A stretch of DNA of 64,000 nt from Planococcus shixiaomingii (GTDB lineage Bacteria; Bacillota; Bacilli; Bacillales_A; Planococcaceae). Each line of letters begins with the position of its first letter. Position 1 is the stretch's first letter. The notes under the pieces are model-generated. The model was not told the DNA's origin. It worked only from the letters and a program-made list of their open reading frames with translations, and did no database searches. This document shows positions 12,881 through 47,753 of the stretch, in pieces. Position numbers and translations under genes: made by a program. The DNA lies in the NCBI RefSeq assembly GCF_030413615.1, contig NZ_CP129236.1, forward strand, positions 1,534,001 through 1,598,000, read 5' to 3'.

Positions 12881-12908
12881 GTCTATGAGTATAGGAAATG
12901 GAGCTAAC

Positions 12909-13000
12909 GCTCATAGGTAGTGGGATATCGCTCATAGCCAAACTGCTAGCGCTCATAGAAGCAGGAGAAGCGCTCATAGAAAAGCAAAAAGCGCTCATAG
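12909..13000 (-). repeat. Phased 21-bp repeat array A (GCTCATAG x5)
   Basis: The octamer GCTCATAG starts at 12909, 12930, 12951, 12972 and 12993, exactly 21 bp apart each time. Spacers are variable and purine-rich. A degenerate version (gagtatag) begins at 12887. On the minus strand the motif reads CTATGAGC, the same as array D at 43013. The array starts about 30 bp after the hem operon terminator; the remaining sequence up to 13105 shows no other feature. Confidence 0.9.
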
Positions 13001-13105
13001 GCTAAAAATCAAATACGCAATCAACGCCGAAAAGCTGTTATCCTCATCTTTTTCAGGTAAAATAACGGTATAAAAGTATTTCGTTAAACGAAAGTTGGAA
13101 CGCCT

Positions 13106-14149
13106 TTGAAGGTATTTTTGAAAACAGCTGGGATTGCGTTTGCGTCAGGCTGGCTTTTTTATGAAGTGGGCATGTTTTTGCCGTGGCTGCTCGGCCCAAT
13201 GTTTGTCTTATTGCTGTTAAATCAATTCACCGCCATCAAGCTGCATTGGCCGAAAATTTTGCGGACAACCGGCTTGGTGCTGCTCGGTGTACAAATCGGC
13301 TCTTCATTTACAAAAGACGCGGTTGTCTTAATGTGGTTTGATTTGCCGTATATGGCGTTTATGACGTTCACAATTGTGGCGCTGTCCTTGCTGCTCGGCT
13401 TATTATTCAAGCGGATGGCTAATGAAAGCCTGGCGACGAGCTTGTTGGGTTCCATCCCGGGTGGCTTGTCGCAAATGGTGGTCATTGCAGAAGAAGTGGA
13501 TTCGGCCAATGTCACTGTTGTCACGATGATGCAGACGATTCGCATTTTCATGGTCGTCTCAATCGTGCCGTTTTTTGCTGTCTTTTTAGTTGGCAGGGAG
13601 GCGAGTGAACTGACGCAGCAAACGTTTCTCTTTTCCTGGATGCCATTTCTTGCCGTTATCTTTGCTGGGCTCGGCGTTTATTGGCTCATGAAAAAAATTG
13701 GTTTTCCAGCCGCTGAAGTGCTGGCGCCAATATTCACGATGGCACTTGTCCAAACGGTTACCGGCCAGTACTTGATCCAAATGCCGTATTGGCTGGTAGC
13801 ACTAGCGCAAGTGTTTATTGGTGCCAATCTCGGTTTGCAGATGGAGCAAGTGCGGGAGAAGATGAACTGGCGCATGGGCATGGCGATTGTCGTCAACAAT
13901 GTCCTGTTGATCGGTTTTTCGGTTCTCATCGCTTATTTGCTGGCTGTCTGGCTGCCGGAATACATTTTCCTCGACTTCTTCCTGAGTGCTGCACCCGGCG
14001 GCATGGCGGAAATGGCGATTACCGCACTCGCTGCTGGAGCGGATGTCGCGCTCATCACCAGCTTTCATTTGTTCCGGCTATTCTTCATTTTGCTGATGGC
14101 CGCACCTATTATTGCATTTGTGGTAAAAAAACTTGACGCTAAAACCTAA
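13106..14149 (+). CDS. AbrB-family integral membrane protein (putative transporter)
   Basis: A 347-aa hydrophobic protein with about nine to ten predicted membrane segments and an internal duplication: LGSIPGGLSQMVVIAEE in the first half and FFLSAAPGGMAEMAITAL in the second. This duplicated PGG-containing pattern is the hallmark of the 'membrane AbrB duplication' family, which is unrelated to the AbrB transcription factor. Some members are annotated as ammonia monooxygenase, without good basis. Transport of an unknown substrate is inference. The start is TTG 13106 after a weak binding site (AAGTTGGA). The promoter of the downstream T-box overlaps the 3' end of this gene. Confidence 0.88.
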   Translation: MKVFLKTAGIAFASGWLFYEVGMFLPWLLGPMFVLLLLNQFTAIKLHWPKILRTTGLVLLGVQIGSSFTKDAVVLMWFDLPYMAFMTFTIVALSLLLGLLFKRMANESLATSLLGSIPGGLSQMVVIAEEVDSANVTVVTMMQTIRIFMVVSIVPFFAVFLVGREASELTQQTFLFSWMPFLAVIFAGLGVYWLMKKIGFPAAEVLAPIFTMALVQTVTGQYLIQMPYWLVALAQVFIGANLGLQMEQVREKMNWRMGMAIVVNNVLLIGFSVLIAYLLAVWLPEYIFLDFFLSAAPGGMAEMAITALAAGADVALITSFHLFRLFFILLMAAPIIAFVVKKLDAKT

Positions 14150-14162
14150 TATTGAGTACAAT
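14133..14162 (+). promoter_or_regulatory. Promoter of the valS T-box leader
   Basis: TTGACG, an 18-bp spacer and TACAAT. The -35 lies inside the last codons of the upstream gene. Confidence 0.7.
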
Positions 14163-14167
14163 AAACC

Positions 14168-14420
14168 TAATTATATATCGATGCGTTGAAGAGGATAGTA
14201 GAATGTGCGTACATTGTAGAGAGAAGGCCGCTTGGTGAAAGGCTTTCATGGACTAGCATTTGAATGTCACCTCTGAGCAGTTTCTGTGAAATGCGAGTAG
14301 CGGAAACCGGATGCGAAATCCGTTATCGAACTTGAGAGCCAGACGCTTTTTTAGGTCTGTGTATAAAGGTGGTACCGCGAACAAACTCCTTCGTCCTTTA
14401 AAGACGACGGGAGTTTTTTT
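14168..14420 (+). promoter_or_regulatory. T-box leader (tRNA-Val sensing) upstream of valS
   Basis: Conserved T-box AAAGGTGGTACCGCG at 14365-14379 is followed by the terminator arm aactccttcgtcc (from about 14384) and its partner gacgacgggagtt ending in seven T. The stem I region precedes it, with GAATGTCACC at 14262-14271; GTC at 14266-14268 is the likely specifier, a valine codon, matching the downstream valyl-tRNA synthetase. Binding of uncharged tRNA-Val would stabilise the antiterminator through the GGTG/UUCC-type pairing. Length and order of elements are standard for Firmicutes T-boxes. Confidence 0.95.
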
Positions 14421-14499
14421 ATTTGCTGGATCTAGGTAATATCGCCTAGTAAAGCAACTGATAGCGTCGCAAACCACTATCAAAAAGGAGGAATTTTCA

Positions 14500-17136
<2,637 letters not shown>

Positions 17137-17143
17137 TAAAGTT

Positions 17144-17176
17144 AACCCGCTTTCCAGAGATGGAAAGCGGGTTTTT
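17144..17176 (+). terminator. Intrinsic terminator after valS
   Basis: A perfect 13-bp stem aacccgctttcca / tggaaagcgggtt (17144-17156, 17161-17173), loop GAGA, followed by T. Confidence 0.9.
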
Positions 17177-17196
17177 CTCTGGCTGGAAAAAATTTC

Positions 17197-17310
17197 TTCA
17201 TGAAGTTTTTCGGCTCTTACATGAACTAAACGAATTCCTACACGCATTTACAAAGTTCTTACCTGCACTCCTGAAGTTTCTACCGACGTTTCCATCGTTT
17301 CTACATGAAA
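17197..17310 (+). repeat. Phased 21-bp repeat array B (TTCTACnnGCA-type x6)
   Basis: The core triplet (TCA once, then TAC) begins at 17197, 17218, 17239, 17260, 17281 and 17302, each 21 bp apart. Units include TACATGAA, TACACGCA, TACCTGCACT and TACCGACGTT, each preceded by pyrimidine-rich TTC/TTT. Because 21 is a multiple of 3, one frame translates into a Phe/Leu heptad pattern; this looks like a by-product of the period. The same unit variants occur in array C at 19242, on the other side of the tetR-SMR genes. Confidence 0.9.
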
Positions 17311-17330
17311 AAGTGCCTCAGCCATTCCAT

Positions 17331-17743
17331 CTATATAAGTTGAACTTAAGAATTATCATTTCATATACCGCTTCGGCCGCTTTGGGCATGGCTCCCGCCA
17401 TGAGCCGATAAGAACACTCGTCTCATTGCTTCGCCTAGCCCCTGACGCGCCGCTGCTGGATAAGCTCATTGAAAACAGGAAACCTTAGACATTTCTGCTG
17501 TACTATCTCAGATATGAAGCAAAACAGCGGAGACGCCTGCGGGATGGCGAGACAGCCGAGACCCCGCAGGGAATGAGTTGTGCAAACGTTATTTTTGCAC
17601 GACTCATTTGCGACGAAGCTAGCGCAGCGATGCAGGAGCACCGGTTTTCCGAAGCGACTGAGGAGGCTTGGCGCTCGCCCGCGGCAAGCGTAGCCGGTTT
17701 GCAGAATATCGGCTATAAAAGATTATTGGTTCAACTTATATAG
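17331..17743. repeat. 15-bp perfect inverted repeat enclosing 383 bp
   Basis: CTATATAAGTTGAAC at 17331-17345 is exactly inverted at 17729-17743. The enclosed sequence has no gene. It holds a GC-rich segment at about 17370-17465 (including cgcctagcccctgacgcgcc, which resembles a widespread Bacillales intergenic repeat) and the palindromic element at 17511-17710. It may be a non-autonomous mobile element or the scar of one. No target-site duplication was recognised (cat / aaa outside the arms). Confidence 0.55.
17511..17710 (+). repeat. GC-rich palindromic repeat element, copy 3
   Basis: A 200-bp element starting gatatgaagcaaaacag and ending gtttgcagaatatc, so the ends pair (gatat/atatc and gcaaa/tttgc) around a GAA/AGA internal loop. 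The core phrase cgcctgcgggatggcgag, then ccccgcaggg, matches the other copies. An internal hairpin gagttgtgcaaa / tttgcacgactc lies at about 17567-17610. No coding capacity. Confidence 0.75.
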
Positions 17744-17752
17744 TTTTAATCT

Positions 17753-17800
17753 TTGACATCAGAAAGCAGAGTTGCTATATTTAACTGACGAACGGTCGGA
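17753..17800 (+). promoter_or_regulatory. Promoter and probable operator of the tetR-SMR operon
   Basis: Consensus SigA promoter TTGACA, 17-bp spacer, TATATT (17753-17781). Just downstream, ctgacgaacggtcgg (about 17785-17799) is a partial dyad with GAC and GTC half-sites, the usual position and style for an autoregulatory TetR-family operator. Promoter confidence is high; operator assignment is inference. Confidence 0.7.
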
Positions 17801-17811
17801 AGGGTGAGGGC

Positions 17812-18393
17812 ATGACGTTACAACAACTTAAAGAAGCGGCACTGCACCGCTTTGCAGAACATGGCTATGATGGAACGTCAATGGCGCATATTGCCGAGGA
17901 TGTCGGCATCAAAAAGCAATCGATTTACACCCATTTCAAAGGAAAAGATGAACTTTTTCTGCAAGTGTGCAATGAAGTTGTGGAAAATGAATTGAAATCT
18001 GTCATCGATTTTATTGAGCAAAACCAAACCCGCTCAATCGAAGGCTTTCTGTACGATTTTCTTGTACACCATAAAGTGCGGTATGAACAAAATGCCGACA
18101 CGAAGTTTTGGCTGCGCATTTCGTTCTTCCCGCCAGCTCATCTTCACGGGGAAGTCATGAAAAACGTATATAGCTATCTAGACAAGATGGAAGAACTGCT
18201 GGAACCGCTTATGGAAAAAGCGGTAAGCGAACATCAGATTGATGAAACGATCGATGTGAAGCTGGCGACCGCCGCTTTTTTAGGCGTCCTCGACGGCGTG
18301 TTTGTGGAAATGCTTTACGGCGGGCCTGAACGAACGAATAAAAGATTGGATGCATCCTGGCATTTTTATTGGCGCGGAGTTTCAAAGGAATAA
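17812..18393 (+). CDS. TetR/AcrR-family transcriptional regulator
   Basis: A 193-aa one-component repressor. The N-terminal helix-turn-helix reads FAEHGYDGTSMAHIAEDVGI, then the recognition helix KKQSIYTHFKGKDELF, characteristic of the family. The C-terminal ligand-binding part is divergent. It is followed 22 bp later by a pair of small multidrug resistance genes, so it most likely represses its own operon and responds to a compound that pair exports. The arrangement parallels B. subtilis yvdT-yvdS-yvdR (recalled, not searched). ATG follows GAAGGGTGAGGG. Confidence 0.92.
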   Translation: MTLQQLKEAALHRFAEHGYDGTSMAHIAEDVGIKKQSIYTHFKGKDELFLQVCNEVVENELKSVIDFIEQNQTRSIEGFLYDFLVHHKVRYEQNADTKFWLRISFFPPAHLHGEVMKNVYSYLDKMEELLEPLMEKAVSEHQIDETIDVKLATAAFLGVLDGVFVEMLYGGPERTNKRLDASWHFYWRGVSKE

Positions 18394-18415
18394 TAAGAGT
18401 TGTGGAGGAAAAGAT

Positions 18416-18757
18416 ATGAATATGCATTGGATGCTGGTCATTGTTGCAGGCATTATTGAGATATTATGGGCTGTCGGTTTGAAGTATGCCTCGAGCTGGA
18501 TGGCATGGGTAGCCGTCGCAGTTCTAATTTACATCTCATTCGTGGTGCTGCTGAAAGCATTGGAAAAAGTGCCGGTCGCCACAGCGTATGCGGTATTTAC
18601 GGGTATCGGGACAGCAGGGACAGTCGTTGTGGAAATGATCGTCTTTGGAGAACCATTCAGTTGGACGAAGGTATTTTTCATCAGCTTATTGCTGGCGGGC
18701 GTACTCGGGTTAAAGCTGGTCACTGCAGATCCCGACAAGAAAGAAGAGGTAGTGTAA
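18416..18757 (+). CDS. Small multidrug resistance (SMR) protein, first subunit
   Basis: A 113-aa protein with four predicted membrane helices. The essential membrane-embedded acidic residue is E15 in GIIEILWAVGLK, the standard SMR position. The start at ATG 18416 follows GTGGAGGAAAAGAT; longer in-frame extensions run back into tetR and are not supported. It carries a charged tail (DPDKKEE), typical of the longer member of paired SMRs. One base separates its stop from the next SMR gene, implying a heterodimeric exporter of small cations such as guanidinium or quaternary ammonium compounds (substrate is inference). Confidence 0.93.
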   Translation: MNMHWMLVIVAGIIEILWAVGLKYASSWMAWVAVAVLIYISFVVLLKALEKVPVATAYAVFTGIGTAGTVVVEMIVFGEPFSWTKVFFISLLLAGVLGLKLVTADPDKKEEVV

Positions 18758-18758
18758 T

Positions 18759-19073
18759 ATGGCTTGGATTTATTTAATATTAGCGGGCTGTTTTGAAGTG
18801 TTAGGGGTAATCGGCATGAATCGGGTTGTCAAATACAAGACGCTTAGCTCCTATATCATTTTGGTCGGGGGATTCGTTGTTAGTTTCAGCTTGCTGGGAC
18901 TAGCGATGAAAACATTGCCGATGGGCTTATCCTATGCGGTCTGGACCGGCATCGGCACAGTAGGCGGAACTCTTGTCGGCATGTTCATCTACGGCGAATC
19001 AAAAGACTGGAAGCGAATAGCTTTTATCGCCATGATCGTATCAGCCGTCATCGGACTGAAATTGACTTCTTAA
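18759..19073 (+). CDS. SMR protein, second subunit
   Basis: A 104-aa, four-helix SMR protein; E13 in LAGCFEVLGVIGM is the proton/substrate-coupling glutamate. The motif GLSYAVWTGIGTVGG in helix 3 is typical. It begins 1 bp after the first SMR gene, which strongly suggests a paired SMR (EbrAB/YkkCD/YvdRS-like) with opposite subunit topologies. A terminator ends the tetR-SMR-SMR transcript. No ykkC-type guanidine riboswitch precedes the operon. Confidence 0.94.
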   Translation: MAWIYLILAGCFEVLGVIGMNRVVKYKTLSSYIILVGGFVVSFSLLGLAMKTLPMGLSYAVWTGIGTVGGTLVGMFIYGESKDWKRIAFIAMIVSAVIGLKLTS

Positions 19074-19082
19074 TAAAACAGC

Positions 19083-19119
19083 AAAGCGCTCCTGAATAAA
19101 GATTCAGGAGCGCTTTTTT
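19083..19119 (+). terminator. Intrinsic terminator of the tetR-SMR operon
   Basis: A perfect 15-bp stem aaagcgctcctgaat / attcaggagcgcttt (19083-19097, 19102-19116) with an AAAG loop and trailing T. Confidence 0.92.
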
Positions 19120-19204
19120 ATTCGCCGATTTTCACAATCGGCTTAATCGCAACGCCTTTTTTGAAATCCTCAAACGCCTCGTTGATTTGCTCGAAATTAA
19201 GGAA
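19118..19204 (-). pseudogene. Remnant of the 3' end of a Zn-dependent alcohol dehydrogenase-like gene
   Basis: On the minus strand an open stretch of about 28 codons ends INEAFEDFKKGVAIKPIVKIGE followed by TAA. This resembles the last residues of medium-chain NAD(P)-dependent alcohol dehydrogenases, where a DINEAFEDFKKG-type helix precedes the final beta-strand. Nothing upstream (19205 and beyond) continues the family, and array C begins about 38 bp further. It is probably all that is left of a deleted gene. Assignment rests on motif memory only. Confidence 0.5.
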
Positions 19205-19241
19205 GCGAAATAGGCCGCAATGTGTGCTGATAAAAATTCTT

Positions 19242-19355
19242 TACAAGCACTCTTTTCATTTCTACCGACGTTATTTCATTTCTTACCCGCACTAACCAAA
19301 CTTCTACACGCACTATCAAGATTTCTACCGAAGCTAGAGCGACTTTTACATAAAA
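19242..19355 (+). repeat. Phased 21-bp repeat array C (TTCTACnnGCACT-type x6)
   Basis: TAC begins at 19242, 19263, 19284, 19305, 19326 and 19347, always 21 bp apart. Units are TACAAGCACT, TACCGACGTT, TACCCGCACT, TACACGCACT, TACCGAAGCT and TACATAAAAA. Two unit variants are shared with array B, and orientation is the same, so B and C are direct-repeat arrays bracketing the tetR-SMR module. One frame translates to a Phe/Leu heptad pattern, probably meaningless. Confidence 0.9.
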
Positions 19356-19388
19356 AAGAAGCAATCCGCCTAAGCGGATTGCTTCCTA

Positions 19389-20180
19389 TTACAAATCCTT
19401 CTTCCGAAACGGTGAACGCTTCTTAAGTTCCGCCAGATGATTCACCAGCAATTCTGCGATATTCTCATCATGCGTCTTATAAAACGACCGGGCACCGACA
19501 GGATCTTCAATTTCATTGAATAAATGCCGGCCATCCGGAAGCAACAAGAAATCGATGCCGATGTAATCGCTGTTCAATGCGCGGGCAATGCGCAATACGT
19601 CTTTTATCTGGGCGGCTGTAACCGTGAATTTTTCTGCCGAACCGCCGAGCGAATAGTTGGCTTTAAAATCACTATCAGAACTTCGTCTTACGGCTCCCAC
19701 TACTTCATCCCCGATTACATAAACCCGCACATCGGCGACATGTTCAACAACGGGCTGATAAATCATGTCTGACTTAAAATGAGGAACTTCCGCATCCGAC
19801 GGCACAAATGCCACTTCAGCACCACCATGGCCATCGACGGTTTTCGCAACATACGGAAAGTCCAGCGCCTCGCGAAATGTCGGAACAGCAGGAACTCCCA
19901 GCATCAAAAACAACTGAAACGCCTGCCATTTGTCATTCGCAATGCGGTTGACTTCAGCCCGGTTCACCAAATAAATGCCCCGGTCTTCCAAGAACCGCGC
20001 CGCTTTTGGCCGCCGTGTCCGAAATAGCACAAGAGAATCCACCAGCTTGTCCGCTAAACGCTCCAAACCGGATTCCGACCAGTCATCCCACAAAACCAAT
20101 TCGAAATCGCCGAACTTTTGCAACTCCCGGATAAACCCGCTGTTCCGTTGCGCGTCTTCCGTTTCATACAATAAAATCAT
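19389..20180 (-). CDS. ATP-grasp family ligase (second of a pair)
   Basis: A 263-aa protein of the RimK/glutathione-synthase-like ATP-grasp fold. The ATP-grasp core is visible from about residue 85: NDKWQAFQLFLMLGVPAVPT, VAKTVDGHGGAEVAFV (the glycine-rich lid), then DVRVYVIGDEVVGAVRR and IGIDFLLLPDGRHLFNEIED. The last acidic cluster is NEIEDPVGARSF instead of the usual NEVN-type metal site, so chemistry may differ. Such enzymes form amide bonds by acyl-phosphate chemistry; the substrate is unknown. It starts inside the stop of the preceding ATP-grasp gene (4-bp overlap) with GGAGG upstream, so both are co-translated. Confidence 0.82.
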   Translation of the reverse strand: MILLYETEDAQRNSGFIRELQKFGDFELVLWDDWSESGLERLADKLVDSLVLFRTRRPKAARFLEDRGIYLVNRAEVNRIANDKWQAFQLFLMLGVPAVPTFREALDFPYVAKTVDGHGGAEVAFVPSDAEVPHFKSDMIYQPVVEHVADVRVYVIGDEVVGAVRRSSDSDFKANYSLGGSAEKFTVTAAQIKDVLRIARALNSDYIGIDFLLLPDGRHLFNEIEDPVGARSFYKTHDENIAELLVNHLAELKKRSPFRKKDL

Positions 20181-21040: not shown

Positions 21041-21109
21041 TTCTACTCCACCTTCATGCTATAATTATGCTTAAATTGTAGCATGTTTCATGTGGAAGGA
21101 AGATATGGA

Positions 21110-22303: not shown

Positions 22304-22351
22304 GCGAGTTAGTAAACCAACAGTGCGTTTTTAATTAAGGGAGAAGATGCC

Positions 22352-26951: not shown

Positions 26952-27614
26952 ATGATCCGTATATTTTTTCTTCTCATCATTGCAGGGATCGTTTTGGGGC
27001 TAGTTTATTTTCAGTTTAAGTCCATTTCGTTGGCCCGAAAGATGACAATGGCAGGAGGGGCGGTCGCTGCTGCTGTTATTGGTCTGTTAATGCAGTCTAT
27101 TTTTGCTTGGTACCTGTCCGTACTAGCTATTGTCGCGATTTCACTGCTGGCGTCGCTAGTTTACATGAAGATAGTGGAAAAAGAAGAAAGCGAGAATTTG
27201 CGTTTGGCCGAAGAACGGAAAGTTAAAAGGCAAACACTAATTCCAGCTGCAGCCGAAGGGCAAGTTAAGGGAGAAGCTCATATCGAAAAATCCAAAAACA
27301 TAAAAGTACGAGAAACGATTCAGCAACAAGAAACGATCAAAGTGCAAGAAACAATCAAAGTACGTGAAACGATTCAAGAACCGGAAACGATCCAAGTTCG
27401 CGAAACCATTCCAGTAAGCGAGCCGAAAAAAGAGCAGGAAAGCATCAATGGGCGCGAAACAATCCAAGAACCGGAAACAATTGCAGTCCGAGAAACTATA
27501 CAAGTGAGAGAAACTACAAAAGAACCGGAACGGGAATTAGAGACGGTACCTGCTAAACCAGCTGGAATGCAGTCGATTCAGCCTGTCGGGAAGGAGCGTT
27601 CACGTGGACAATAA
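26952..27614 (+). CDS. Membrane protein with hexapeptide (xxRETI/xxPETI) repeats
   Basis: A 220-aa protein of no recognised family. It has two to three hydrophobic helices at about 1-20, 32-52 and 53-72, then a hydrophilic tail from about residue 115 built of six-residue repeats: VRETIQ, QQETIK, VQETIK, VRETIQ, EPETIQ and variants, roughly twelve units. The tail is highly charged and likely extended or coiled. It sits between the PilX-like gene and the VanW-like gene and overlaps the latter by 11 bp, so it is in the pilus operon. ATG follows TTAGGAGGTCAAT. Function unknown. Confidence 0.75.
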   Translation: MIRIFFLLIIAGIVLGLVYFQFKSISLARKMTMAGGAVAAAVIGLLMQSIFAWYLSVLAIVAISLLASLVYMKIVEKEESENLRLAEERKVKRQTLIPAAAEGQVKGEAHIEKSKNIKVRETIQQQETIKVQETIKVRETIQEPETIQVRETIPVSEPKKEQESINGRETIQEPETIAVRETIQVRETTKEPERELETVPAKPAGMQSIQPVGKERSRGQ

Positions 27615-37232: not shown

Positions 37233-37274
37233 AGCCTTGGCTTTGTCCTTTTTTAGTATTGAAGAAGAAACATA

Positions 37275-37398
37275 GATGAAAGAGTGGAGAGCGGCGACTC
37301 CAGCGGGGAAAGCGGGCCAAGCAAGACCCCGCAAGGCGATAGCCTGAGGAGGCTTGCGGACCGCCCCGCGGAAAGCGTCCGCTCGGAGCGAATTCATC
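37275..37398 (+). repeat. GC-rich palindromic repeat element, copy 4
   Basis: A 124-bp element from gatgaaagagtgg to gagcgaattcatc. The outer arms gatgaa/ttcatc and gagcgg/ccgctc pair around an AGA/GAA internal loop. It shares ggcgactccagcggg, ctgaggaggct and ccgcggaaagcgtccgc with copy 1 (minus strand of 5642-5766) and with copies 2, 3 and 5 in part. It occupies the place of spoIIB in B. subtilis. Confidence 0.78.
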
Positions 37399-37583
37399 CA
37401 AACAATTTTTTTAATTAAAATATTTTTTTAAAACCGGACAGCTGATCACTTTCCGGGAATCACACCGTCCAAATTTCATTTTTAAAATTGCTATAGCCAC
37501 CAAAACTCATTTTCTCGTTTTTCTATACAATTTTCAGCCCGTAGGAATTTAGGTATGATGTTAGAAAAAGGAGGAGTTAGTTT
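37399..37583. other. AT-rich spacer before maf
   Basis: No gene was recognised. A weak promoter candidate for maf (TTTTCA, 17 bp, TATGAT) ends near 37559, and a strong binding site AAAAGGAGGAG lies just before the maf start. Confidence 0.4.
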
Positions 37584-38878: not shown

Positions 38879-38968
38879 TACTGTTTATTTCTCTTCTTAT
38901 CGTCTATAATGAGAAGTATTGTGTAAACTCTATGGCTTAATAGGCATATAAAGAAGGGAAGAATTTAC

Positions 38969-39997: not shown

Positions 39998-40011
39998 GGA
40001 GGATTGCCGTA

Positions 40012-40914
40012 ATGCCACAGCTTTTTTCAAACAAGCGGCTTATTTTGCTGCTGTTGGGCGTCATCCTTCTCGTTGCATTAATTTCGTATTCTCTCCGGGA
40101 CCGCGACAATGTGTCGCCTCCGGAGCAAGTCATAAAAGATGCAGTGGGAGTCGGGCAATCGATCTTTTCAGGTCCTGCCCATTTTGTAACTGGAATTTTT
40201 GATAATGTTGATTCACTCTTGAATACATACAAGGAAAATCAGCACTTGAAAGCGCGTCTTGAAGAATTTGCCAGTGTGCAAGCCGAAGTGAAGGACTTGC
40301 GCTCGGAAAACGACCAACTTAAAGAAATCGTTGGCAAAGAAGAAGATTTGCGCAGCTATAACCCGATCCACGCAACCGTTATTGCGCGGAACCCGGACCA
40401 ATGGGAAGAAAAAATCATTTTGAACAAAGGCACATCAAGTGGCGTTAAACCAGATATGGCAGTCATGACAGCATCAGGCTTGATCGGCAAAGTCACATTG
40501 ACGACGCCGTTCACGTCGACTGTTGAACTGGTTTCGACCCAGAATCCGAATTACCGTGTCTCAGCGATGGTTGTTGGCGGCAAGAAAGAAGTCTTTGGAT
40601 TGATTGAAGGCTATGATTCGGAGCGCAGGGAACTGTTGCTGAAACGCGTGGATGCGGATATCGACTTGAAGGAAGGCCAGCAAGTCATCTCAAGTGGACT
40701 TGGCGGCATTTTCCCGAAAGGCATTTTAATCGGTAAAATCACGGAAGTGACCATCGATGAGTTCGGACTGACAAAGCTTGCTTATATTAAGCCTGCTGCG
40801 GACTTCTCACTTTTAAATCACGTTATAATTGCAGATCGGACTGCTCCTGAAGTTGACGGGGAAGACAATGGCGAAATTGAGGATACGACGGGAACCGAGG
40901 ATGATGGCTCATGA
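40012..40914 (+). CDS. mreC: Rod-shape determining protein MreC
   Basis: A 300-aa bitopic membrane protein organising the elongasome outside the membrane. An N-terminal membrane helix (about 9-27) is followed by a coiled coil (NQHLKARLEEFASVQAEVKD) and the two beta-barrel domain (NKGTSSGVKPDMAV, GLGGIFPKGILIGK). The acidic C-terminal tail is variable in the family. It overlaps mreD by 4 bp. Confidence 0.95.
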   Translation: MPQLFSNKRLILLLLGVILLVALISYSLRDRDNVSPPEQVIKDAVGVGQSIFSGPAHFVTGIFDNVDSLLNTYKENQHLKARLEEFASVQAEVKDLRSENDQLKEIVGKEEDLRSYNPIHATVIARNPDQWEEKIILNKGTSSGVKPDMAVMTASGLIGKVTLTTPFTSTVELVSTQNPNYRVSAMVVGGKKEVFGLIEGYDSERRELLLKRVDADIDLKEGQQVISSGLGGIFPKGILIGKITEVTIDEFGLTKLAYIKPAADFSLLNHVIIADRTAPEVDGEDNGEIEDTTGTEDDGS

Positions 40915-41441
40915 TCCGCTATTGGATTCCGTTGATCAGTGTCGTCTTGTTTTTCATGGAACCGATTTTCGGCCTGTTTTCGCCGCTCAAACTTGATGGG
41001 GAATTTTTCTATATCGTGCCCCGGTTCCTTATCATGTTTTTGATATTTGTTGCGGTTTATTATGATTTGAAGCATGCTGTTTATTATGGATTATTTTTCG
41101 GGCTCTTGTATGATGTGTTTTTCATTGATATTATTGGGTTATATTCTTTTTTATATCCAGCGGTCTGTTTGATTGCCGGATATATCGTGAAGTCAATACA
41201 CCGCAATTTAGTGGTGACTACGGTCATGACCTTAGCTCTGACGGCTATATTTGAGTTTGTCTTATATCAATTTTTTAAATTAATTTCACTTGTCTCCATG
41301 CCAATGGATGTGTTTTTGCACACCCGCTTAATGCCGACCATGATAGCAAATTCGCTTTTCTTGCTGATGCTCGGTTGGATATTTAAAACAGTTATTGATG
41401 CTCGATTGATCGAGCGGGAAAAAAACCCAAGGTTATCTTAA
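40911..41441 (+). CDS. mreD: Rod-shape determining protein MreD
   Basis: A 176-aa hydrophobic protein with five to six membrane helices. MreD proteins vary in sequence; position after mreC with an ATGA overlap, size and the GLFFGLLYDVFFIDIIGLYS stretch support the call. It partners MreC in the elongasome. Confidence 0.92.
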   Translation: MIRYWIPLISVVLFFMEPIFGLFSPLKLDGEFFYIVPRFLIMFLIFVAVYYDLKHAVYYGLFFGLLYDVFFIDIIGLYSFLYPAVCLIAGYIVKSIHRNLVVTTVMTLALTAIFEFVLYQFFKLISLVSMPMDVFLHTRLMPTMIANSLFLLMLGWIFKTVIDARLIEREKNPRLS

Positions 41442-41463
41442 TGAAAGCGCAGGTGTACCATTT

Positions 41464-42129
41464 TTGAAGAATCTTGTTTATATTAAAGGGACGAAACAAG
41501 GGCTCGTGCTGCAGCTTGACGACCAGTGTGCTTACACCGATCTGCTGACAGAGCTGCAGGCAAAGGTATCGGACCCTGCGCTGGATGGCAGTGCTGAAGT
41601 GCAAGTAAATCTCGGGTACCGTTATTGCACTGAAGCTCAGCAAAAAGAAATCGTTGCGACCGTTCAAAGCAATACGCATTTGCGGGTGTCGAAAATGACA
41701 AGCGACGTGATTACCGTTGAAGAAAGCAACCGCCGCATTCAAGAGCGCCAATCCGAAACGTATGTCGGAATTGTCCGCTCTGGCCAAATCGTTAAAGCTG
41801 ACGGCGACCTGGTTGTCGTCGGAGATGTTAACCCGAACGGCAAGGTGGTTGCGGGAGGCAATATTTACGTACTCGGCCGGTTGAAAGGGCAAGCCCACGC
41901 CGGAGCCAATGGCAACCTCCAAGCGGTCATTGCCGCTTCTTGGCTGGAAGCCACTCACCTAAAGATTCATGAAACCTTGGAAATCATGACCGATGAACTG
42001 ACAGTGTTGTCGGAGCAGCCGGAAATGGAATGCGCTTATTTACATAACAATGGCCATATCATTATTGACCGCTTGCAGGAATTACGGTATATACGGCCGG
42101 AAATTTCAACGTTTAAAGGAGGAAGCTAA
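41464..42129 (+). CDS. minC: Septum site-determining protein MinC
   Basis: FtsZ polymerisation inhibitor, activated by MinD at the membrane. N-terminal domain about 1-100; the C-terminal right-handed beta-helix carries RSGQIVKADGDLVVVGDVNP, GGNIYVLGRLKG and AHAGANGN. 221 aa. TTG start with AGGTG about 10 bp upstream. minD starts 1 bp after the minC stop. Confidence 0.95.
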   Translation: MKNLVYIKGTKQGLVLQLDDQCAYTDLLTELQAKVSDPALDGSAEVQVNLGYRYCTEAQQKEIVATVQSNTHLRVSKMTSDVITVEESNRRIQERQSETYVGIVRSGQIVKADGDLVVVGDVNPNGKVVAGGNIYVLGRLKGQAHAGANGNLQAVIAASWLEATHLKIHETLEIMTDELTVLSEQPEMECAYLHNNGHIIIDRLQELRYIRPEISTFKGGS

Positions 42130-42130
42130 T

Positions 42131-42931
42131 GTGGGAGAAGCAATAGTTGTTACATCAGGAAAGGGAGGCGTCGGTAAAACGACGACGACCGCTAATCTCG
42201 GCACTGCATTGGCTCTTCAGGGAAAAAAAGTATGCTTGATCGATACAGATATAGGTTTGCGGAATTTAGACGTGATTCTAGGGCTCGAAAACCGGATCAT
42301 CTACGATTTGGTAGACGTCCTGGAAGGCCGTTGCAAAGTCCACCAGGCGCTAGTGAAAGACAAGCGCTTTGAAGATATGCTGTATTTATTGCCGGCTGCG
42401 CAAACAACCGATAAAAACGCCATCAATCCCGAACAGATGAAGGCGCTGGTGACGGAATTGAAAGAGCAATACGATTTCGTTATCATCGATTGTCCTGCAG
42501 GCATTGAGCAAGGCTACAAAAACGCGGTTGCCGGCGCAGACCGTGCAATCGTCGTGACGACTCCGGAAATTTCGGCTGTGCGCGATGCAGACCGCATCAT
42601 CGGTCTTCTTGAACTGGAAGAAAACATCGCTCCGCCAAAACTGATCATCAATCGGATCCGTCCGCATTTGATGAAAGCTGGCGAAGCGCTTGATATTAAC
42701 GAAATCACGACGCATTTGTCGATCGACCTTCTCGGAATCATCGCTGACGACGAGAGCGTCATCTCCAGCTCGAACCGTGGAGAGCCGATCGTCATGGACC
42801 CGCAAAACCGTGCCGCACTCGGTTACCGCAACATTGCGCGTAGGCTGCTCGGAGAATCCGTGCCGCTTATGACAATGGAAAAGCAAAACCAAGGCGTGTT
42901 TTCAAAAATAAAAGCGATTTTTTCAAAATAA
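42131..42931 (+). CDS. minD: Septum site-determining protein MinD
   Basis: A 266-aa deviant Walker A ATPase that recruits MinC to the membrane. GTG 42131 is the start (GEAIVVTSGKGGVGKTTTTA), with AAAGGAGGAAGC upstream; longer in-frame forms run into minC. The switch motif is IIDCPAGIEQGY. A C-terminal amphipathic membrane-targeting helix (GVFSKIKAIFSK) is intact. B. subtilis has spoIVFA/FB next; here there is a terminator and a phased array. Confidence 0.97.
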   Translation: MGEAIVVTSGKGGVGKTTTTANLGTALALQGKKVCLIDTDIGLRNLDVILGLENRIIYDLVDVLEGRCKVHQALVKDKRFEDMLYLLPAAQTTDKNAINPEQMKALVTELKEQYDFVIIDCPAGIEQGYKNAVAGADRAIVVTTPEISAVRDADRIIGLLELEENIAPPKLIINRIRPHLMKAGEALDINEITTHLSIDLLGIIADDESVISSSNRGEPIVMDPQNRAALGYRNIARRLLGESVPLMTMEKQNQGVFSKIKAIFSK

Positions 42932-42939
42932 ATGATCGA

Positions 42940-42968
42940 GCTCCCGCAGAAATGCGGGGGCTTTTTTA
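42940..42968 (+). terminator. Intrinsic terminator after minD
   Basis: Stem gctcccgca / tgcgggggc (42940-42948, 42953-42961) with a GAAA tetraloop, followed by TTTTTT. Confidence 0.9.
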
Positions 42969-43012
42969 TTTGCGTAATATTATATTGTTTTATGCGGCGT
43001 TCCAGGTTTTTC

Positions 43013-43124
43013 TATGAGCGGTTTCGGGTATTTTATGAGCGAAATCGGCTGTTCTATGAGCAGATATTCCGGTTTTATGAGCGCAAAAGCGGCTCTTATG
43101 ATCACTTTTTCTCTTCCTATGATC
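43013..43124 (+). repeat. Phased 21-bp repeat array D (TATGAGC/TATGATC x6)
   Basis: TATGAGC begins at 43013, 43034, 43055 and 43076 and TATGATC at 43097 and 43118, all exactly 21 bp apart. A degenerate TATGCGG lies at 42991. TATGAGC is the reverse complement of the array A motif. It begins 45 bp after the minD terminator. One frame reads a repeating FYERxxx heptad, which is the reason small ORFs appear here; no separate binding site supports translation. Confidence 0.9.
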
Positions 43125-43174
43125 ACGTAGCCGATATTTCCTTATTGCGATACACCTTTAACTTCAACAAAAGG

Positions 43175-43203
43175 TTGACTCCTCTATCCTGACATGGTAT
43201 TAT
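43175..43203 (+). promoter_or_regulatory. Promoter of the rplU operon
   Basis: TTGACT, a 17-bp spacer and TATTAT, immediately upstream of the L21 leader. Confidence 0.75.
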
Positions 43204-43212
43204 TCTAATGTT

Positions 43213-43312
43213 ATGTTTGTAGCGCACCCGTGCTACAACCGCTCGAATCAGGTCATTAAGCGTTCGCTGCAAAGCGGATCACCTGAATAGGCGAGTCTTA
43301 GTCTAAGAGGAG
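43213..43312 (+). ncRNA. L21 ribosomal protein leader
   Basis: A structured 5' UTR of rplU: hairpin ttgtagc / gctacaa (43217-43238) and a longer arm with atcaggt / acctgaat and cgctcg / cgagtc pairings, ending shortly before the AAGAGGAGGTG ribosome binding site. Position and fold match the Bacillales L21 leader, the autoregulatory element of rplU-ysxB-rpmA. Confidence 0.8.
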
Positions 43313-43322
43313 GTGCAAGGAT

Positions 43323-43631
43323 ATGTACGCAATTATTGAAACTGGTGGTAAACAAATCAAAGTTGAAGCGGGCCAAGAGATCTACGTTGAGAAATTGAAC
43401 GGAGAAGCTGGTGACGTGATCACATTTGACAAAGTTCTATTTGTAGGTGGAGACGATTCTAAAGTAGGTGTTCCTTTTGTTGAAGGAGCTACTGTTTCGG
43501 CAACTGTTGTTAAAAACGGCCGCGCGAAAAAGATTACTGTTTTCAAATACAAAGCGAAAAAGAACTACCGTAAAAAACAAGGTCATCGTCAGCCATACAC
43601 AAAATTGACTGTTGATGCAATCAACCTGTAA
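43323..43631 (+). CDS. rplU: 50S ribosomal protein L21
   Basis: A 102-aa ribosomal protein with the family N-terminus [15 protein letters not shown] and the C-terminal Lys/Arg-rich [17 protein letters not shown]. Strong binding site AAGAGGAGGTG. First gene of rplU-prp-rpmA. Confidence 0.98.
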
Positions 43632-43634
43632 GAA

Positions 43635-44268
<634 letters not shown>

Positions 44269-44280
44269 TAAACAACGAAG

Positions 44281-44306
44281 AGGGCTGCTTTCGCAGTCCT
44301 TTTTAT
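44281..44306 (+). terminator. Intrinsic terminator after rpmA
   Basis: Stem agggctgc / gcagtcct (44281-44288, 44293-44300; one G-T pair) with a TTTC loop, followed by a T-rich run. Confidence 0.8.
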
Positions 44307-44336
44307 TTTTTCTATCAGGAATTTTCGGGGGAAAAT

Positions 44337-44345
44337 TGGTATACT
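44337..44345 (+). promoter_or_regulatory. Extended -10 candidate for spo0B-obg
   Basis: TTGGTATACT provides an extended -10 (TG-n-TATACT), about 30 bp before the spo0B start. No strong -35 was seen. Confidence 0.4.
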
Positions 44346-44375
44346 GAGAAGAGAAGCTGAAATGGGACGTGACGT

Positions 44376-44891
44376 ATGGAAGATACGCTGACAATGGCAC
44401 AATCGCTTCGGCATGCGCGCCATGATTTCTTGAATGAATTACAATTGATCAAAATGAATTTGGACCTTGGCCGGATCGAACGGGCACAAGCGATAATTCG
44501 TTCGCATGCTGAAGCGGCTGTGCATGCAAGCCGCTTAGCGGCGCTCAAGCTGCCAAAGACAGAAGAATGGCTGCTCGTTTTCAAGTGGCGTTTTCCTGAA
44601 TTTCAAGTTCAGCTGGATTGTGCGGCTGTTAAAGCACCGCAAAAGTTGGATTCAGAATTTGCGGAGGTGCTTGAGACGGTTGTACAAGCGATTAGAAAGC
44701 AGATGGATCCGGCAGTGGAATATCAATGCCGAATTCGTGTTGCGGCGGATAACTCTGTATTTACGGTAGCATTGGATTTGAACGGGAACTGGGCAGATTT
44801 CGATATTCCGCCAGTCTCGGAAGTACAGGTACGAAAAGAGTGCAGCGAAGACAGGACGATTTTTACTGTCTATGCACAGATGGAGGGATAA
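44376..44891 (+). CDS. spo0B: Spo0B-like phosphotransferase
   Basis: A 171-aa protein with an N-terminal helical hairpin carrying the phospho-accepting His in [19 protein letters not shown], closely like the histidine region of B. subtilis Spo0B, and a degenerate GHKL-like C-terminal domain. In B. subtilis it transfers phosphate from Spo0F to Spo0A. It sits directly upstream of obg, as there. Every other sporulation gene of this neighbourhood is missing, so its present role may not be sporulation. Start ATG 44376 has only a weak binding site. Confidence 0.85.
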
Positions 44892-44892
44892 T

Positions 44893-46182
44893 ATGTTTGT
44901 CGATCACGTAAAAGTTTATGTTAGAGGTGGAGACGGCGGAGATGGAATGGTAGCATTTCGCCGCGAGAAATATGTACCGAACGGCGGGCCAGCCGGCGGA
45001 GACGGAGGAAAAGGCGGAAATATCGTCTTTGTCGTTGAAGAAGGCTTGCGGACGCTGATGGATTTCCGTTACAAACGGATTTTTAAAGCGGAGCGCGGTA
45101 CGCACGGAATGAGCAAAAACCAGCACGGGGCAAAAGCGCAAGATACATTCATCAAAGTTCCACCTGGCACGGTTGTAAAAGATGCCGATACCGGCGAAAC
45201 GATTGCTGACTTGGTTGAACACGGCCAATCGGCTATTATTGCTCGCGGTGGGCGCGGCGGACGCGGTAACTCGCGCTTTGCCACTCCAGCGAACCCGGCT
45301 CCGGAATTATCGGAAAAAGGGGAACCAGGATTTGAACGCAACGTCATCTTGGAACTGAAAGTGTTGGCGGATGCCGGCCTTGTCGGATTCCCAAGTGTCG
45401 GAAAATCGACGTTATTGTCTGTTGTGTCAGCAGCAAAACCAAAAATTGCTGAATATCACTTTACGACAATCGTGCCGAATCTCGGTATGGTTGAAACTGA
45501 AGACCAGCGCAGTTTCGTTATGGCAGATTTGCCAGGTTTGATTGAAGGCGCGCATGCAGGCGTCGGGCTCGGGCATCAATTCCTGCGCCACATCGAACGG
45601 ACACGCGTTATCGTCCATGTGATCGATATGTCCGCAATGGAAGGCCGCGATCCGTACGACGATTATTTGACGATCAACGAAGAGTTGAAGCAGTACAACA
45701 TGCGTTTGACAGAACGTCCGCAACTGATTGTGGCAAACAAAATGGATATGCCGGGAGCGGATGAGAACTTAGAGAAATTCCGTGAAAAAGTAGGGGAAGA
45801 CGCACGCATTTTCCCGATTTCCGCACTTTCTCGCCAAGGCTTGAGCAATTTGTTGTTCGCGATAGCGGATCTATTGGAAGTCACATCAGAATTCCCATTG
45901 ATCGACGAAGAGGCAGACGAGTCGGAAAGCACAGTTCTTTACAAACACGAAACGGATGCAGATGGATTCAGCATTACGCGTGAATCGGATGGAGCATTCG
46001 TCTTGAGCGGCTATGCAATTGAACGCTTGTTCAAAATGACGGACTTCTCACGTGAAGATTCAATTCGCCGATTTGCCCGCCAGATGCGCGGCATGGGAAT
46101 TGATGATGCTTTGCGTGAACGCGGCGCTGAAAATGGCGACACGGTTCGCTTGCTTGAATTCGAATTCGAATTTATGGACTAA
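44893..46182 (+). CDS. obg: Obg family GTPase
   Basis: A 429-aa essential GTPase acting in 50S assembly and stress response. The glycine-rich Obg fold is at 1-158 ([31 protein letters not shown]); the G domain has G1 [10 protein letters not shown]3 DLPGLIEGA and G4 NKMD; a C-terminal OCT domain closes it. ATG 44893 follows GATGGAGGGATA and begins 1 bp after spo0B; longer in-frame starts overlap spo0B without support. Confidence 0.97.
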
Positions 46183-46232
46183 GCCGGAAAAAAACCGGTT
46201 AGCGAAGGTATATTTATCTGGAGGTTGCGTGA

Positions 46233-46685
46233 ATGAAGAATATCTCGGAACAACGGTTTTATTTGGTGCGTGAAGATGTTTTGACGGAAGCGATGCAGAA
46301 AACGCTTGAAGTGAAAAAATTGCTCCAGCGGGACCGCATGTCGATTTTGGACGCCGTGGCGCAGACCGGCCTTTCACGCAGCGCTTTTTATAAATATCGG
46401 GATGCGGTGTTTCCGTTCCATTCCATTGTCAAAGAACGGATTTTGACCGTTTTTCTTCAATTGGAAGACCGGGCGGGGACACTGGCAACCCTCCTTCAAT
46501 CAGTCGCGGAAGCGCGCTGCAATATTTTGACGATCCATCAGACGATCCCGATTCAAGGGCGCGCGAATGTGACGCTTTCATTGGACGTGACGGCGATGGA
46601 GATAGACTTGGAAACGTTTTTGCAGCAACTCAAAAAACTCGATTTTGTCGAGTCGGCTGATGTTGTTTCAAGCGGTTCCTATTAA
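46233..46685 (+). CDS. pheB: ACT domain-containing protein (ThrR/PheB)
   Basis: A 150-aa protein with an N-terminal helix-turn-helix-like segment (MSILDAVAQTGLSRSAFYKY, about 36-56) and a C-terminal ACT domain (VFLQLEDRAGTLATLLQSVA). The B. subtilis homologue next to pheA is called PheB/YszB and was later named ThrR, a repressor of threonine genes. Start follows CTGGAGGTTGCGTGA. Co-directional with obg and pheA. Confidence 0.92.
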   Translation: MKNISEQRFYLVREDVLTEAMQKTLEVKKLLQRDRMSILDAVAQTGLSRSAFYKYRDAVFPFHSIVKERILTVFLQLEDRAGTLATLLQSVAEARCNILTIHQTIPIQGRANVTLSLDVTAMEIDLETFLQQLKKLDFVESADVVSSGSY

Positions 46686-46701
46686 ATAAAGGCGGGATTG
46701 T

Positions 46702-47565
46702 ATGACTGAAAAAACAAGGCAACACCAGATTTCTTTCTTAGGTCCAGAGGCGTCGTTCACGCATTTGGCCGCTTTAAAAGTTTTCCCGGACAGCTCCTTG
46801 GTTCCTTTTACTACAATTCCTGAATGCATAGAAGCAGTGGCGGAAGGCCGTGTCGATTACGCGGTCGTGCCACTGGAAAATGCGTTGGAAGGATCAGTGC
46901 CGCTAACGATCGATTATTTGTTCCATGAAGCTCAGCTGTTTGTAACGGCAGAAGTGTTGTCACCGATTGAGCAGCATTTGTTGGTGCATCCTGAAAACCG
47001 TGGCGTGGAATCGTTTGAAGCGATTTATTCGCATCCGCATGCACTTGCGCAATGCCATAAGTTTTTATTTTATACATACCGCAGCACGCCGCTTGAACAA
47101 TTCAGTTCTACAGCGGCTGCCGCCAAGATGGTCAGTGAATTGCCGGAACGCCCAATAGCCGCCATCGGCAATGAATTCTCGGCGGAAAAATACGGGCTCG
47201 ACATTTTGCACCGGGACATCCACGATTTCCACTTTAACCACACGCGCTTTTTCGTGTTGTCAAAGAAGGATCACAAACTGAATGTCGCGGGTCATGACGA
47301 GGTAATTAAAACGACGCTGATGATTTCGCTTCCGGAAGATGATCATTCCGGGGTGCTTCATCAAGTGCTTTCGGTCTTCGCGTGGCGCAAGTTGAACTTG
47401 AGCAAAATCGAGTCGCGTCCGTTGAAAACCGGCCTTGGCAATTACTTTTTCATTGTCGACGTGTTGGCAGATGAAAGCGCGCCGATGATGAAAGGCGCGT
47501 TTGAGGAATTGGCAGCAATCGGCTGCAGTGTGAAGACGCTCGGTTCGTATTATACGTATAAATGA
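46702..47565 (+). CDS. pheA: Prephenate dehydratase
   Basis: Converts prephenate to phenylpyruvate in phenylalanine synthesis. Catalytic domain about 1-185 with FLGPEASFTHLAALKVF, VPLENALEGSV and the NHTRFFVL substrate segment; a C-terminal ACT domain with the ESRPLK phenylalanine-binding motif suggests feedback inhibition. 287 aa. A terminator follows. Confidence 0.96.
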   Translation: MTEKTRQHQISFLGPEASFTHLAALKVFPDSSLVPFTTIPECIEAVAEGRVDYAVVPLENALEGSVPLTIDYLFHEAQLFVTAEVLSPIEQHLLVHPENRGVESFEAIYSHPHALAQCHKFLFYTYRSTPLEQFSSTAAAAKMVSELPERPIAAIGNEFSAEKYGLDILHRDIHDFHFNHTRFFVLSKKDHKLNVAGHDEVIKTTLMISLPEDDHSGVLHQVLSVFAWRKLNLSKIESRPLKTGLGNYFFIVDVLADESAPMMKGAFEELAAIGCSVKTLGSYYTYK

Positions 47566-47569
47566 TAGA

Positions 47570-47604
47570 AAGTCCCTCGGCGCATTGCGTTGAGGGACTT
47601 TTTT
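47570..47604 (+). terminator. Intrinsic terminator after pheA
   Basis: Stem aagtccctc / gagggactt (47570-47578, 47592-47600) with an additional inner cgca/tgcg pairing, followed by T. Confidence 0.88.
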
Positions 47605-47623
47605 GCGGTTGGATTTGGCGGAG

Positions 47624-47753
47624 CGCAAGTAAATACTCGGGAACGCAAGTAAACGTCGAGAAGCGCAAGTAAATCTAAAGTAACGCAAGTAAATCCGTGT
47701 TACCGCAAGAAAAAGCTGCGGAACGCAAGTAACCTTTTTTTATCGCAAGTAAA
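47624..47753 (-). repeat. Phased 20-bp repeat array E (CGCAAGTAA x7)
   Basis: CGCAAGT (once CGCAAGA) begins at 47624, 47644, 47664, 47684, 47704, 47724 and 47744: seven units, exactly 20 bp apart. Most read CGCAAGTAA. On the minus strand the motif is TTACTTGCG, fitting the TAYnnGCr pattern of arrays B, C and D. A 20-bp period keeps no reading frame. It lies between the pheA terminator and the niaR terminator, in the place where B. subtilis carries other genes only beyond niaR. Confidence 0.9.

Follow-up and report, generated by a model that had tools for sequence, protein, structure and literature searches.

Helically phased repeat arrays in Planococcus and their association with genes for zinc-ribbon NERD proteins

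Five periodic arrays in a genome segment of Planococcus

We analyzed a 64,000-nucleotide stretch of Planococcus shixiaomingii DNA (contig NZ_CP129236.1, positions 1,534,001 to 1,598,000; hereafter, the window), which contains five arrays of short motifs repeated every 20 or 21 bp. Arrays of this type are physically linked to genes for proteins that combine a NERD domain (PF08378) with a zinc ribbon. Each of these NERD genes has one motif, protein and motif diverge together, the pitch is fixed at two helical turns, the motif is constrained, and arrays have decayed at two loci. The five nearest matches found with valS as bait were Planococcus or Planomicrobium, placing the host in Planococcus. 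The arrays of the window are listed below; the motif models mentioned were built solely from the flanks of the host genes NERD1 and NERD2, described in the next section.

Array 1, 12904..13004, + strand: class A (CGCTCATAG), five clean copies, period 21; NERD1 motif model matches at 12949 and 12970 on +.
Array 2, 17197..17310, - strand: class B (CTACMYGCA / CTACCGACG / TTACATGAA on +), period 21, downstream of valS; NERD2 motif model matches at 17236, 17257 and 17278 on -.
Array 3, 19242..19355, - strand: class B, period 21, with a minus-strand gene (19389-20180) on its right and an apparent gene remnant on its left; NERD2 motif model matches at 19260, 19281 and 19302 on -.
Array 4, 43008..43127, - strand: class A (TATGAGCG and TATGATCAC on +), period 21, upstream of rplU; NERD1 motif model matches at 43052, 43094 and 43115 on -.
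Array 5, 47619..47756, + strand: class C (CGCAAGTAAA), seven copies, period 20, between convergent genes; an orphan, for which no cognate NERD was found in its own genome.

The initial annotation had placed five arrays of 7-9-bp motifs here, with periods of 21, 21, 21, 21 and 20 bp, and all of this was borne out. A motif-blind detector (five copies, at least 6 of 8 columns fully conserved, periods 9-60) found arrays 1, 4 and 5 together with one 18-bp coding repeat in the window, and no periodic array in 30 first-order Markov copies of it. Arrays 2 and 3 are more degenerate; both were recognized by eye and by the NERD2 motif model, and Tandem Repeats Finder also detected array 3. The consensus TAYnnGCr, proposed for all motifs, does not cover the whole superfamily: TACCGACG, TACMYGCA and TACATGAA occur together in arrays 2 and 3, and other arrays in the genome carry GAGTTNCAACTT or TATGATCAC. 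Proximity to the terminator of the upstream gene, also proposed for all five, was seen for four; the hairpin near array 3 belongs, by eye, to the minus-strand gene on its right.

We further sampled the window's own genome (G000) in 40 stretches of 20 kb, which together with the window cover 864 kb, or approximately one fifth of the genome. The motif-blind detector found 25 arrays of period 20 or 21 in this sample, corresponding by extrapolation to roughly 110 arrays per genome; this is an undercount, because the detector misses arrays 2 and 3. The motif classes included TATGAKCR, CTACMYGCA/CTACCGACG/TTACATGAA, CGCAAGTAAA, CGTGCGTATTT, GTGCATATTTT and GAGTTNCAACTT, of which GAGTTNCAACTT is nearly palindromic internally; CGCAAGTAAA, the CCGCACCTC motif described below and others are not. 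Among 23 intergenic arrays, 13 were located in gaps between tandem genes, 8 in convergent and 2 in divergent gaps, compared with 204, 59 and 73, respectively, for all intergenic gaps of 100-900 bp, and the link to terminators mostly amounts to this bias to gene 3' ends. In some arrays, the spacers were similar at a higher-order distance of 40 or 42 bp.

A coding origin of the arrays was ruled out: a period of 20 cannot be divided by 3, and of 24 sampled arrays 23 were intergenic, the remaining one lying inside a long open reading frame. The 18-bp repeat found by the detector (27303-27530, approximately 6 residues per unit) is unrelated to the arrays and belongs to a predicted 220-aa protein (26952-27614). 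We also observed a dispersed hairpin near CGCTTTTCGCTTGCGAAAAGC that recurs in intergenic regions of several species, sometimes beside arrays (L188, L364, L377, L392, L028 and L029).

NERD genes are flanked by arrays of their own motif

At the rplU locus, where array 4 is located in the window, an extra gene was present in 21 of the 30 loci examined, and its stop codon usually ran straight into a CCGCACCTC-type array of period 21 (in L137, the gene was split over two reading frames). The product of this gene combines a NERD domain (PF08378) and a zinc ribbon. The host genome contains five NERD genes, with PF08378 scores of 50 to 61 bits (cut-off 22.1), and each of the five had its own motif in arrays no more than 450 bp away, on both sides of four genes and only downstream of NERD4:

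NERD1, G000:C1:1495988-1496938, approximately 37 kb upstream of the window: GTGATCATAGAA on both sides, downstream as two to three units only.
NERD2, C1:3.150 Mb: GTGCAGGTAGAAA/GTCGGTAGAAA on both sides.
NERD3, 3.266 Mb: GTGCATATTTT/GAGCGTATTTT on both sides.
NERD4, 3.103 Mb, with one in-frame stop: GAGTTACAACTT downstream.
NERD5, 3.516 Mb: CGTGCGTATTTT, period 20, on both sides.

Where the sequences were inspected, motif orientation was the same on both flanks. In the sense orientation, TA and A/T-rich bases come after a class-specific 4-6-mer in many motifs, with CCGCACCTC and GAGTTACAAC as exceptions. The GAGTTNCAACTT motif clusters around one of these genes, as 5 of its 10 places lie within 15 kb of NERD4.

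The proteins have an N-terminal PD-(D/E)XK-like NERD domain, followed by a C4 zinc ribbon and a C-terminal segment. Within the PD-(D/E)XK-like core, Q75, D77 and K92 were invariant among 49 homologs, and E90 was present in at least 90% of them. Neither single-sequence nor profile searches for a solved structure gave anything convincing, and no solved nuclease was matched by profile; in the two proteins searched for other Pfam domains, there were only sub-threshold matches to zinc-binding-type models.

Occurrence of NERD-array pairs in other genomes

For a wider view, we assembled a family set of 126 proteins that are distinct by their last 120 residues and score at least 200 bits with the family model, orthologs included; 121 of them contain the C4 motif. 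An array was present within 450 bp of the gene in 113 of the 126, on both sides in 39. When any period from 12 to 40 was allowed, the 152 arrays in these flanks comprised 104 of period 21, 46 of period 20, one of 26 and one of 36. The expectation of helically phased sites, of the kind that a cooperative DNA-binding protein would use, was thus supported by 150 of the 152 arrays; the implied single motif with a single protein was replaced by a family of zinc-ribbon NERD proteins, each member with its own motif. Other genes in the array-bearing samples had an array in 52 of 744 cases, 47 of these with periods 20 or 21. Many of the 126 proteins are orthologous and therefore not independent; the 112 array-bearing ones used for comparison reduce to 41 representatives of less than 60% identity.

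The (D/E)xK acid is retained in 122 of the 126 family proteins, and the four zinc-NERDs with Ser in its place (L335, L339, L349 and L184) form one clade. Thirteen other zinc-NERDs have Asp instead of Glu at this position.

Pfam-based sampling added 85 new loci, chosen as best matches. In this set, an array was found within 250 bp of 31 of 39 NERD genes with a zinc ribbon versus 1 of 46 without it (Fisher p 1e-14); L184 is counted here among those without a zinc ribbon, although a zinc NERD lies there. The single array-bearing NERD without a zinc ribbon, L260, has a second architecture. Zinc NERDs with 20/21-bp arrays were also found outside Planococcaceae, at 4 of 4 loci in G030, 2 of 2 in G135 and 1 of 3 in G151, and at 0 of 1 in G133. 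Among 24 Planococcus genomes, the number of NERD matches ranged from 0 to 11 per genome. NERD1 had no homologs at E 1e-5 in 72,556 plasmid and 50,697 phage records, from which records near the host genome were possibly left out; an origin from plasmids or phages was rejected on the basis of both collections.

The gap behind valS illustrates how motifs differ between species. It contained an array in 4 of the 5 nearest loci (all but L031) and in 2 of 5 Sporosarcina loci; L027 and L030 had motifs of their own, L028 and L029 shared one, L033 and L035 had similar ones, and none was the motif of the window. The idea that the superfamily is confined to Planococcaceae was considered and not upheld: at valS loci of other Bacillota (66 named, 1427 kb), there were 7 period-20/21 matches before filtering and one, L062, after the intergenic filter. 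A search with a single motif pattern, TATGAGCGN{11,15}TATGAGCG, matched in only 2 of 40 genomes (the host and relatives), the host itself included; it is the wrong tool, because other species use other motifs.

In G176, a member of another family of Bacilli with 13 NERD matches, NERDs of the second type were directly followed by tandem arrays with units of 41-62 bp. These were present at 5 of the 8 loci fetched (L401, L405, L406, L407 and L408, with periods of 50, 51, 62, 61 and 41, respectively), and inverted repeats occurred within the unit in at least two. NERD-array partnerships may occur in more than one architecture.

Co-divergence of protein and motif

Among the 41 representatives, motif similarity followed protein identity (Mantel r 0.371, 0 of 5000 permutations as high; r 0.028 for the reverse-complement control). 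The mean motif score was 0.80 for pairs below 30% identity, 1.36 at 30-40%, 2.57 at 40-50% and 6.53 at 50-60%. The period was shared by nearest representatives in 33 of 41 cases, compared with 22.8 on shuffling (9 of 2000 shuffles as high). With 30 representatives of less than 65% identity, r was 0.50.

Six NERD1 orthologs (at least 53% identity) all had GTGATCATAGAA-type arrays on both sides, and the period was 21 in G000, G051 and G056 and 20 in G007, G005 and G041. Within one motif class, the pitch can therefore differ between species (20 or 21). In G007, 63 of 67 exact copies of GTGATCATAGA were in arrays, with a spacing of 20, sometimes 21. In some arrays of this genome, such as C1:591306-591458, the spacing alternates between 20 and 21 bp, i.e., it is approximately 20.5 bp.

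Constraint on motifs and turnover of arrays

We compared orthologous arrays behind the rplU-linked NERD, with motif and spacer positions classed by agreement within arrays. G054 and G044 differed at 0 of 45 motif and 16 of 30 spacer positions, and G054 and G040 at 1 of 45 and 23 of 30. No such contrast was seen in the close pair G049-G057 (1 of 45 and 1 of 30) or in G049-G005 (7 of 45 and 7 of 30). Over 21 loci, the majority base accounted for 0.82-0.98 at motif positions and 0.50-0.59 in the core spacer, with six flanking positions intermediate; one mis-framed locus, L137, lowers these averages. The whole unit is thus not equally diverged, as it would be in a minisatellite. Stepwise slippage, which the initial annotation had offered as one source of the arrays, does not suffice as the sole cause, because the spacers are strongly diverged and the motifs nearly unchanged.

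The NERD1 proteins themselves evolve rapidly, with 53-63% identity versus 89-91% for the neighboring M42-type peptidase (named by eye). In 30 genomes, the M42-peptidase locus contained NERD and arrays in 17 (five with degenerate arrays), an array alone of 4-5 units in 2, a two-unit relic in 2, neither in 8 and a contig end in 1. Class A arrays at hemL and rplU were intact in G051, which has NERD1; they were reduced to a relic in G053 and absent from G001 and G010, all three of which lack NERD1.

Copies of two motifs were counted across the genus in 46 genomes. The rplU-linked NERD was seen in 21 genomes, and 17 of these had 2-12 copies of ACCGCACCTCA (including those in the array beside the gene); the 9 genomes seen to lack it had 0-2, and the reversed-pattern control gave 0-5. 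Copies of GTGATCATAGA numbered 67 in G007, 53 in G005, 36 in G041, 17 in G051, 8 in G000 and 2 in G056, where the motif is GTGCTCATAG. Apart from the genomes listed below that have no close NERD1 ortholog, all remaining genomes had 0-3 copies (control 0-2).

Array density was variable: 864 kb of G000 contained 25 arrays; among three samples of 120 kb each, that of G007 (10 NERDs) contained 1 and those of G014 (5 NERDs) and G009 (one NERD) none; and none was found in 340 kb of two genomes that lack NERDs. Density was rejected as too variable to prove NERD dependence.

Probable partners of the arrays in the window

We scanned the window with the motif models derived from NERD flanks and inspected the top 25 matches of each. 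Six of the 25 matches of the NERD1 model were in arrays 1 and 4, and six of the 25 matches of the NERD2 model in arrays 2 and 3, although the array intervals make up 1.1% of the window; the NERD3, NERD4 and NERD5 models had 1, 0 and 1 of their top 25 matches in arrays. This suggests that NERD1 is the cognate protein of arrays 1 and 4, and NERD2 that of arrays 2 and 3. For array 5, we searched the host genome with L164, a NERD whose motif is similar; this returned the five known genes and one match with E 0.29. NERD5, whose arrays share its period of 20, was rejected as a partner, since none of the top 25 matches of its model fell in array 5.

The surroundings of arrays 3 and 4 also deserve mention. 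A region of 400 bp to the left of array 3 (18813-19213) matches minus-strand coding sequence of G053, G001 and G010 (76-78% identity), which in these genomes continues where the window has array 3. No minus-strand open reading frame of at least 80 aa spans this region in the window, and array 3 seems to lie where a gene remnant breaks off. Across array 4, an open reading frame of 86 aa (42932-43192) is retained, with repeated Tyr-Glu-Arg by eye, and such arrays are therefore open to mis-annotation as small proteins.

Interpretation and alternative explanations

Taking linkage, co-divergence and constraint together, we consider it likely that an array represents double-stranded recognition sites for one zinc-ribbon NERD paralog, and that the gene and its arrays form one coevolving element. 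In this model, adjacent NERD copies would occupy the same face of the DNA at intervals of two helical turns, and the paralog would set the pitch of 20 or 21 bp. The element would comprise arrays beside the gene and solo arrays, the latter mostly at gene 3' ends, and arrays would tend to persist with the cognate NERD and to decay after its loss. The nuclease may nick or cut at the array, and repair could then copy, homogenize and occasionally spread the units, as proposed for the action of REP-associated tyrosine transposases (RAYTs) on repetitive extragenic palindromes (REPs). Judged from sequence, a NERD protein probably binds its own arrays and cuts or converts them. A bolder proposal, which we put forward tentatively as possible rather than probable, is that zinc-ribbon NERD nucleases are array makers with a protein-encoded ruler of 20 or 21 bp and constitute a second, independently evolved nuclease-repeat partnership in bacteria. 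Dispersed arrays would then be rewritten genome-wide, with motif and pitch tracking the current NERD allele.

Several observations weigh against the coevolving-element model or parts of it. The other 19 of the top 25 matches in the window were outside arrays, for NERD1 and NERD2 alike. Array 5 has no partner in its own genome, yet G051 has a similar array at this position. In G001, which has a class-B NERD (L178), the class-B array at valS was decayed, contrary to prediction. ACCGCACCTCA was absent from four genomes with the rplU-linked NERD (G008, G010, G016 and G056, which have variant motifs), and its reversed-pattern control reached 5 in one genome. GTGATCATAGA was also found in genomes without a close NERD1 ortholog: 37 copies in G049, 14 in G042, 11 in G050, 10 in G006, 9 in G057, 6 each in G045 and G003, and 5 in G023. 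We read those of the first five of these genomes as orphans. The NERD located at the NERD1 slot in G049 has a CCGCAAACAA array, so the class A arrays of G049 look like remnants of an earlier specificity. Array density does not scale with NERD number, which makes the zero in NERD-less genomes weak by itself. In the set of 30 representatives, the correlation with motif was about equal for the N-terminal and C-terminal parts of the protein (r 0.46 and 0.48) and does not point to either part as the reader of the motif. Finally, among proteins with Ser for the catalytic acid, L335 and L339 have clear period-20 arrays, the array of L349 is weaker and L184 lacks one; cleavage may therefore be unneeded, and binding may matter more than cutting.

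This last point is shared by an explanation in which NERDs are sequence-specific cooperative chromosome proteins, serving as roadblocks at gene ends or as anchors for looping or segregation, with an incidental nuclease fold and with arrays kept by host selection. Constrained motifs among diverging spacers, the fixed helical pitch, the preference for gene 3' ends away from divergent promoters and the absence of NERD1 homologs from the plasmid and phage records all fit such a role. However, patchy presence of NERDs (0 to 11 per genome), rapid turnover of protein and motif at the same locus, orphan arrays and array-free loci speak against an essential architectural function, and retention of the catalytic acid in 122 of 126 proteins also counts against this explanation; on balance, we find this explanation somewhat doubtful. 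It is unlikely, in our judgment, that NERD behaves like a homing-endonuclease gene and inserts into existing arrays, with solo arrays as empty targets. Such insertion would account for arrays on both sides of 39 of the 113 array-bearing NERD genes, in the same orientation where inspected, and for the M42-peptidase locus, at which NERD with arrays (17 of 30 genomes) and array-only sites (2 of 30) coexist. Yet array-only sites are equally explained by deletion between flanking arrays, 8 of the 30 genomes have neither NERD nor array there, and in the rplU-linked group the array usually starts at the NERD stop codon, with no 20/21-bp array found upstream.

The diversified specificities, several paralogs per genome and a weak similarity of the NERD domain to the defense proteins PglW and MAD6 are what might be expected if NERD nucleases attacked foreign DNA and were held by the dispersed arrays, which would serve as decoys or self tags. 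We regard this as quite improbable, given that PADLOC matches were weak (best E 0.0012) and that GAGTTNCAACTT places are clustered near NERD4 and lack the even distribution expected of self tags. Membership in a known defense system was rejected, as PADLOC and NCBIfam gave weak matches only. Passive minisatellites, produced by replication slippage with no partner protein, are hardly tenable: although the 40- or 42-bp spacer similarity in some arrays is expected from tandem duplication of two units, periods besides 20 and 21 are almost absent, motifs are near-constant against diverging spacers, and the linkage to zinc-NERDs and the co-divergence would be left unexplained. As a sole cause, they were refuted by the tests of period, constraint and linkage.

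Comparison with known systems

Plasmid iterons and par centromeres consist of 20-22-bp direct repeats in helical phase that are bound cooperatively by one protein, with one site per replicon beside the replication or partition gene. The NERD-linked arrays resemble them as helically phased direct repeats. However, they are numerous, dispersed over the chromosome and built with variable spacers, and their protein is nuclease-like. Similarly, CRISPR arrays alternate a short constant part with a variable spacer of fixed length. Here, the constant part is 8-12 bp of a 20-21-bp unit, shorter than a CRISPR repeat (approximately 20 bp or more), the motifs are class-specific and the loci are many and dispersed. 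The zinc ribbon matched Cas12 models weakly, and no search aimed at cas genes was made.

The NERD domain is shared with PglW, by weak matches, and with SmdA of Staphylococcus aureus, a membrane protein of cell division; the available part of the SmdA report mentions no repeat arrays and describes the function of NERD in bacteria as previously unstudied (PMC9040797). Among the open-licence papers listed, covered by titles and abstract openings, we found no description of phased intergenic arrays in Planococcaceae or of NERD with repeats, which is not proof of absence; to that extent, the pairing proposed here appears to be new. If correct, it would provide NERD, a widespread domain whose function is unknown, with a genomic partner and with a DNA target that can be tested, each paralog having its own motif. 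Such pairs occur in many Planococcaceae and some other Bacilli, and dozens of protein-motif pairs provide a ready data set for a recognition code.

The closest parallel is with RAYT-REP systems (REPtrons). A rayt gene is flanked by cognate REPs with which it coevolves, with several classes per genome and many solo intergenic copies (PMC2817692; PMC8266576); rayt outpaces its neighbors in evolution, REP number follows rayt, and REPs are sometimes clustered near the gene (PMC2817692). Likewise, NERDs are nuclease-type genes flanked by cognate repeats, with solo intergenic copies, several classes, coevolution and fast evolution of the gene; repeat number follows gene presence, with exceptions, and GAGTTNCAACTT clusters near NERD4. 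In contrast, RAYT is an HUH tyrosine (Y1) transposase, and the NERD partner has a PD-(D/E)XK-like core and a zinc ribbon. REPs are palindromes that are processed as single-stranded hairpins and inverted around rayt, unlike the short, direct, helically phased motifs of NERD arrays. REPs also carry a GTAG/CGTC tag (PMC3733652), and array units are not palindromic and tagged in this manner. As the parts are non-homologous as far as tested, the NERD-array pair may be said to work like RAYT-REP rather than to belong to it. Modeling papers still ask why populations of RAYT-REP sequences persist (PMC8049555). A natural replicate of RAYT-REP with unrelated parts would therefore allow features common to such partnerships to be separated from those specific to one system.

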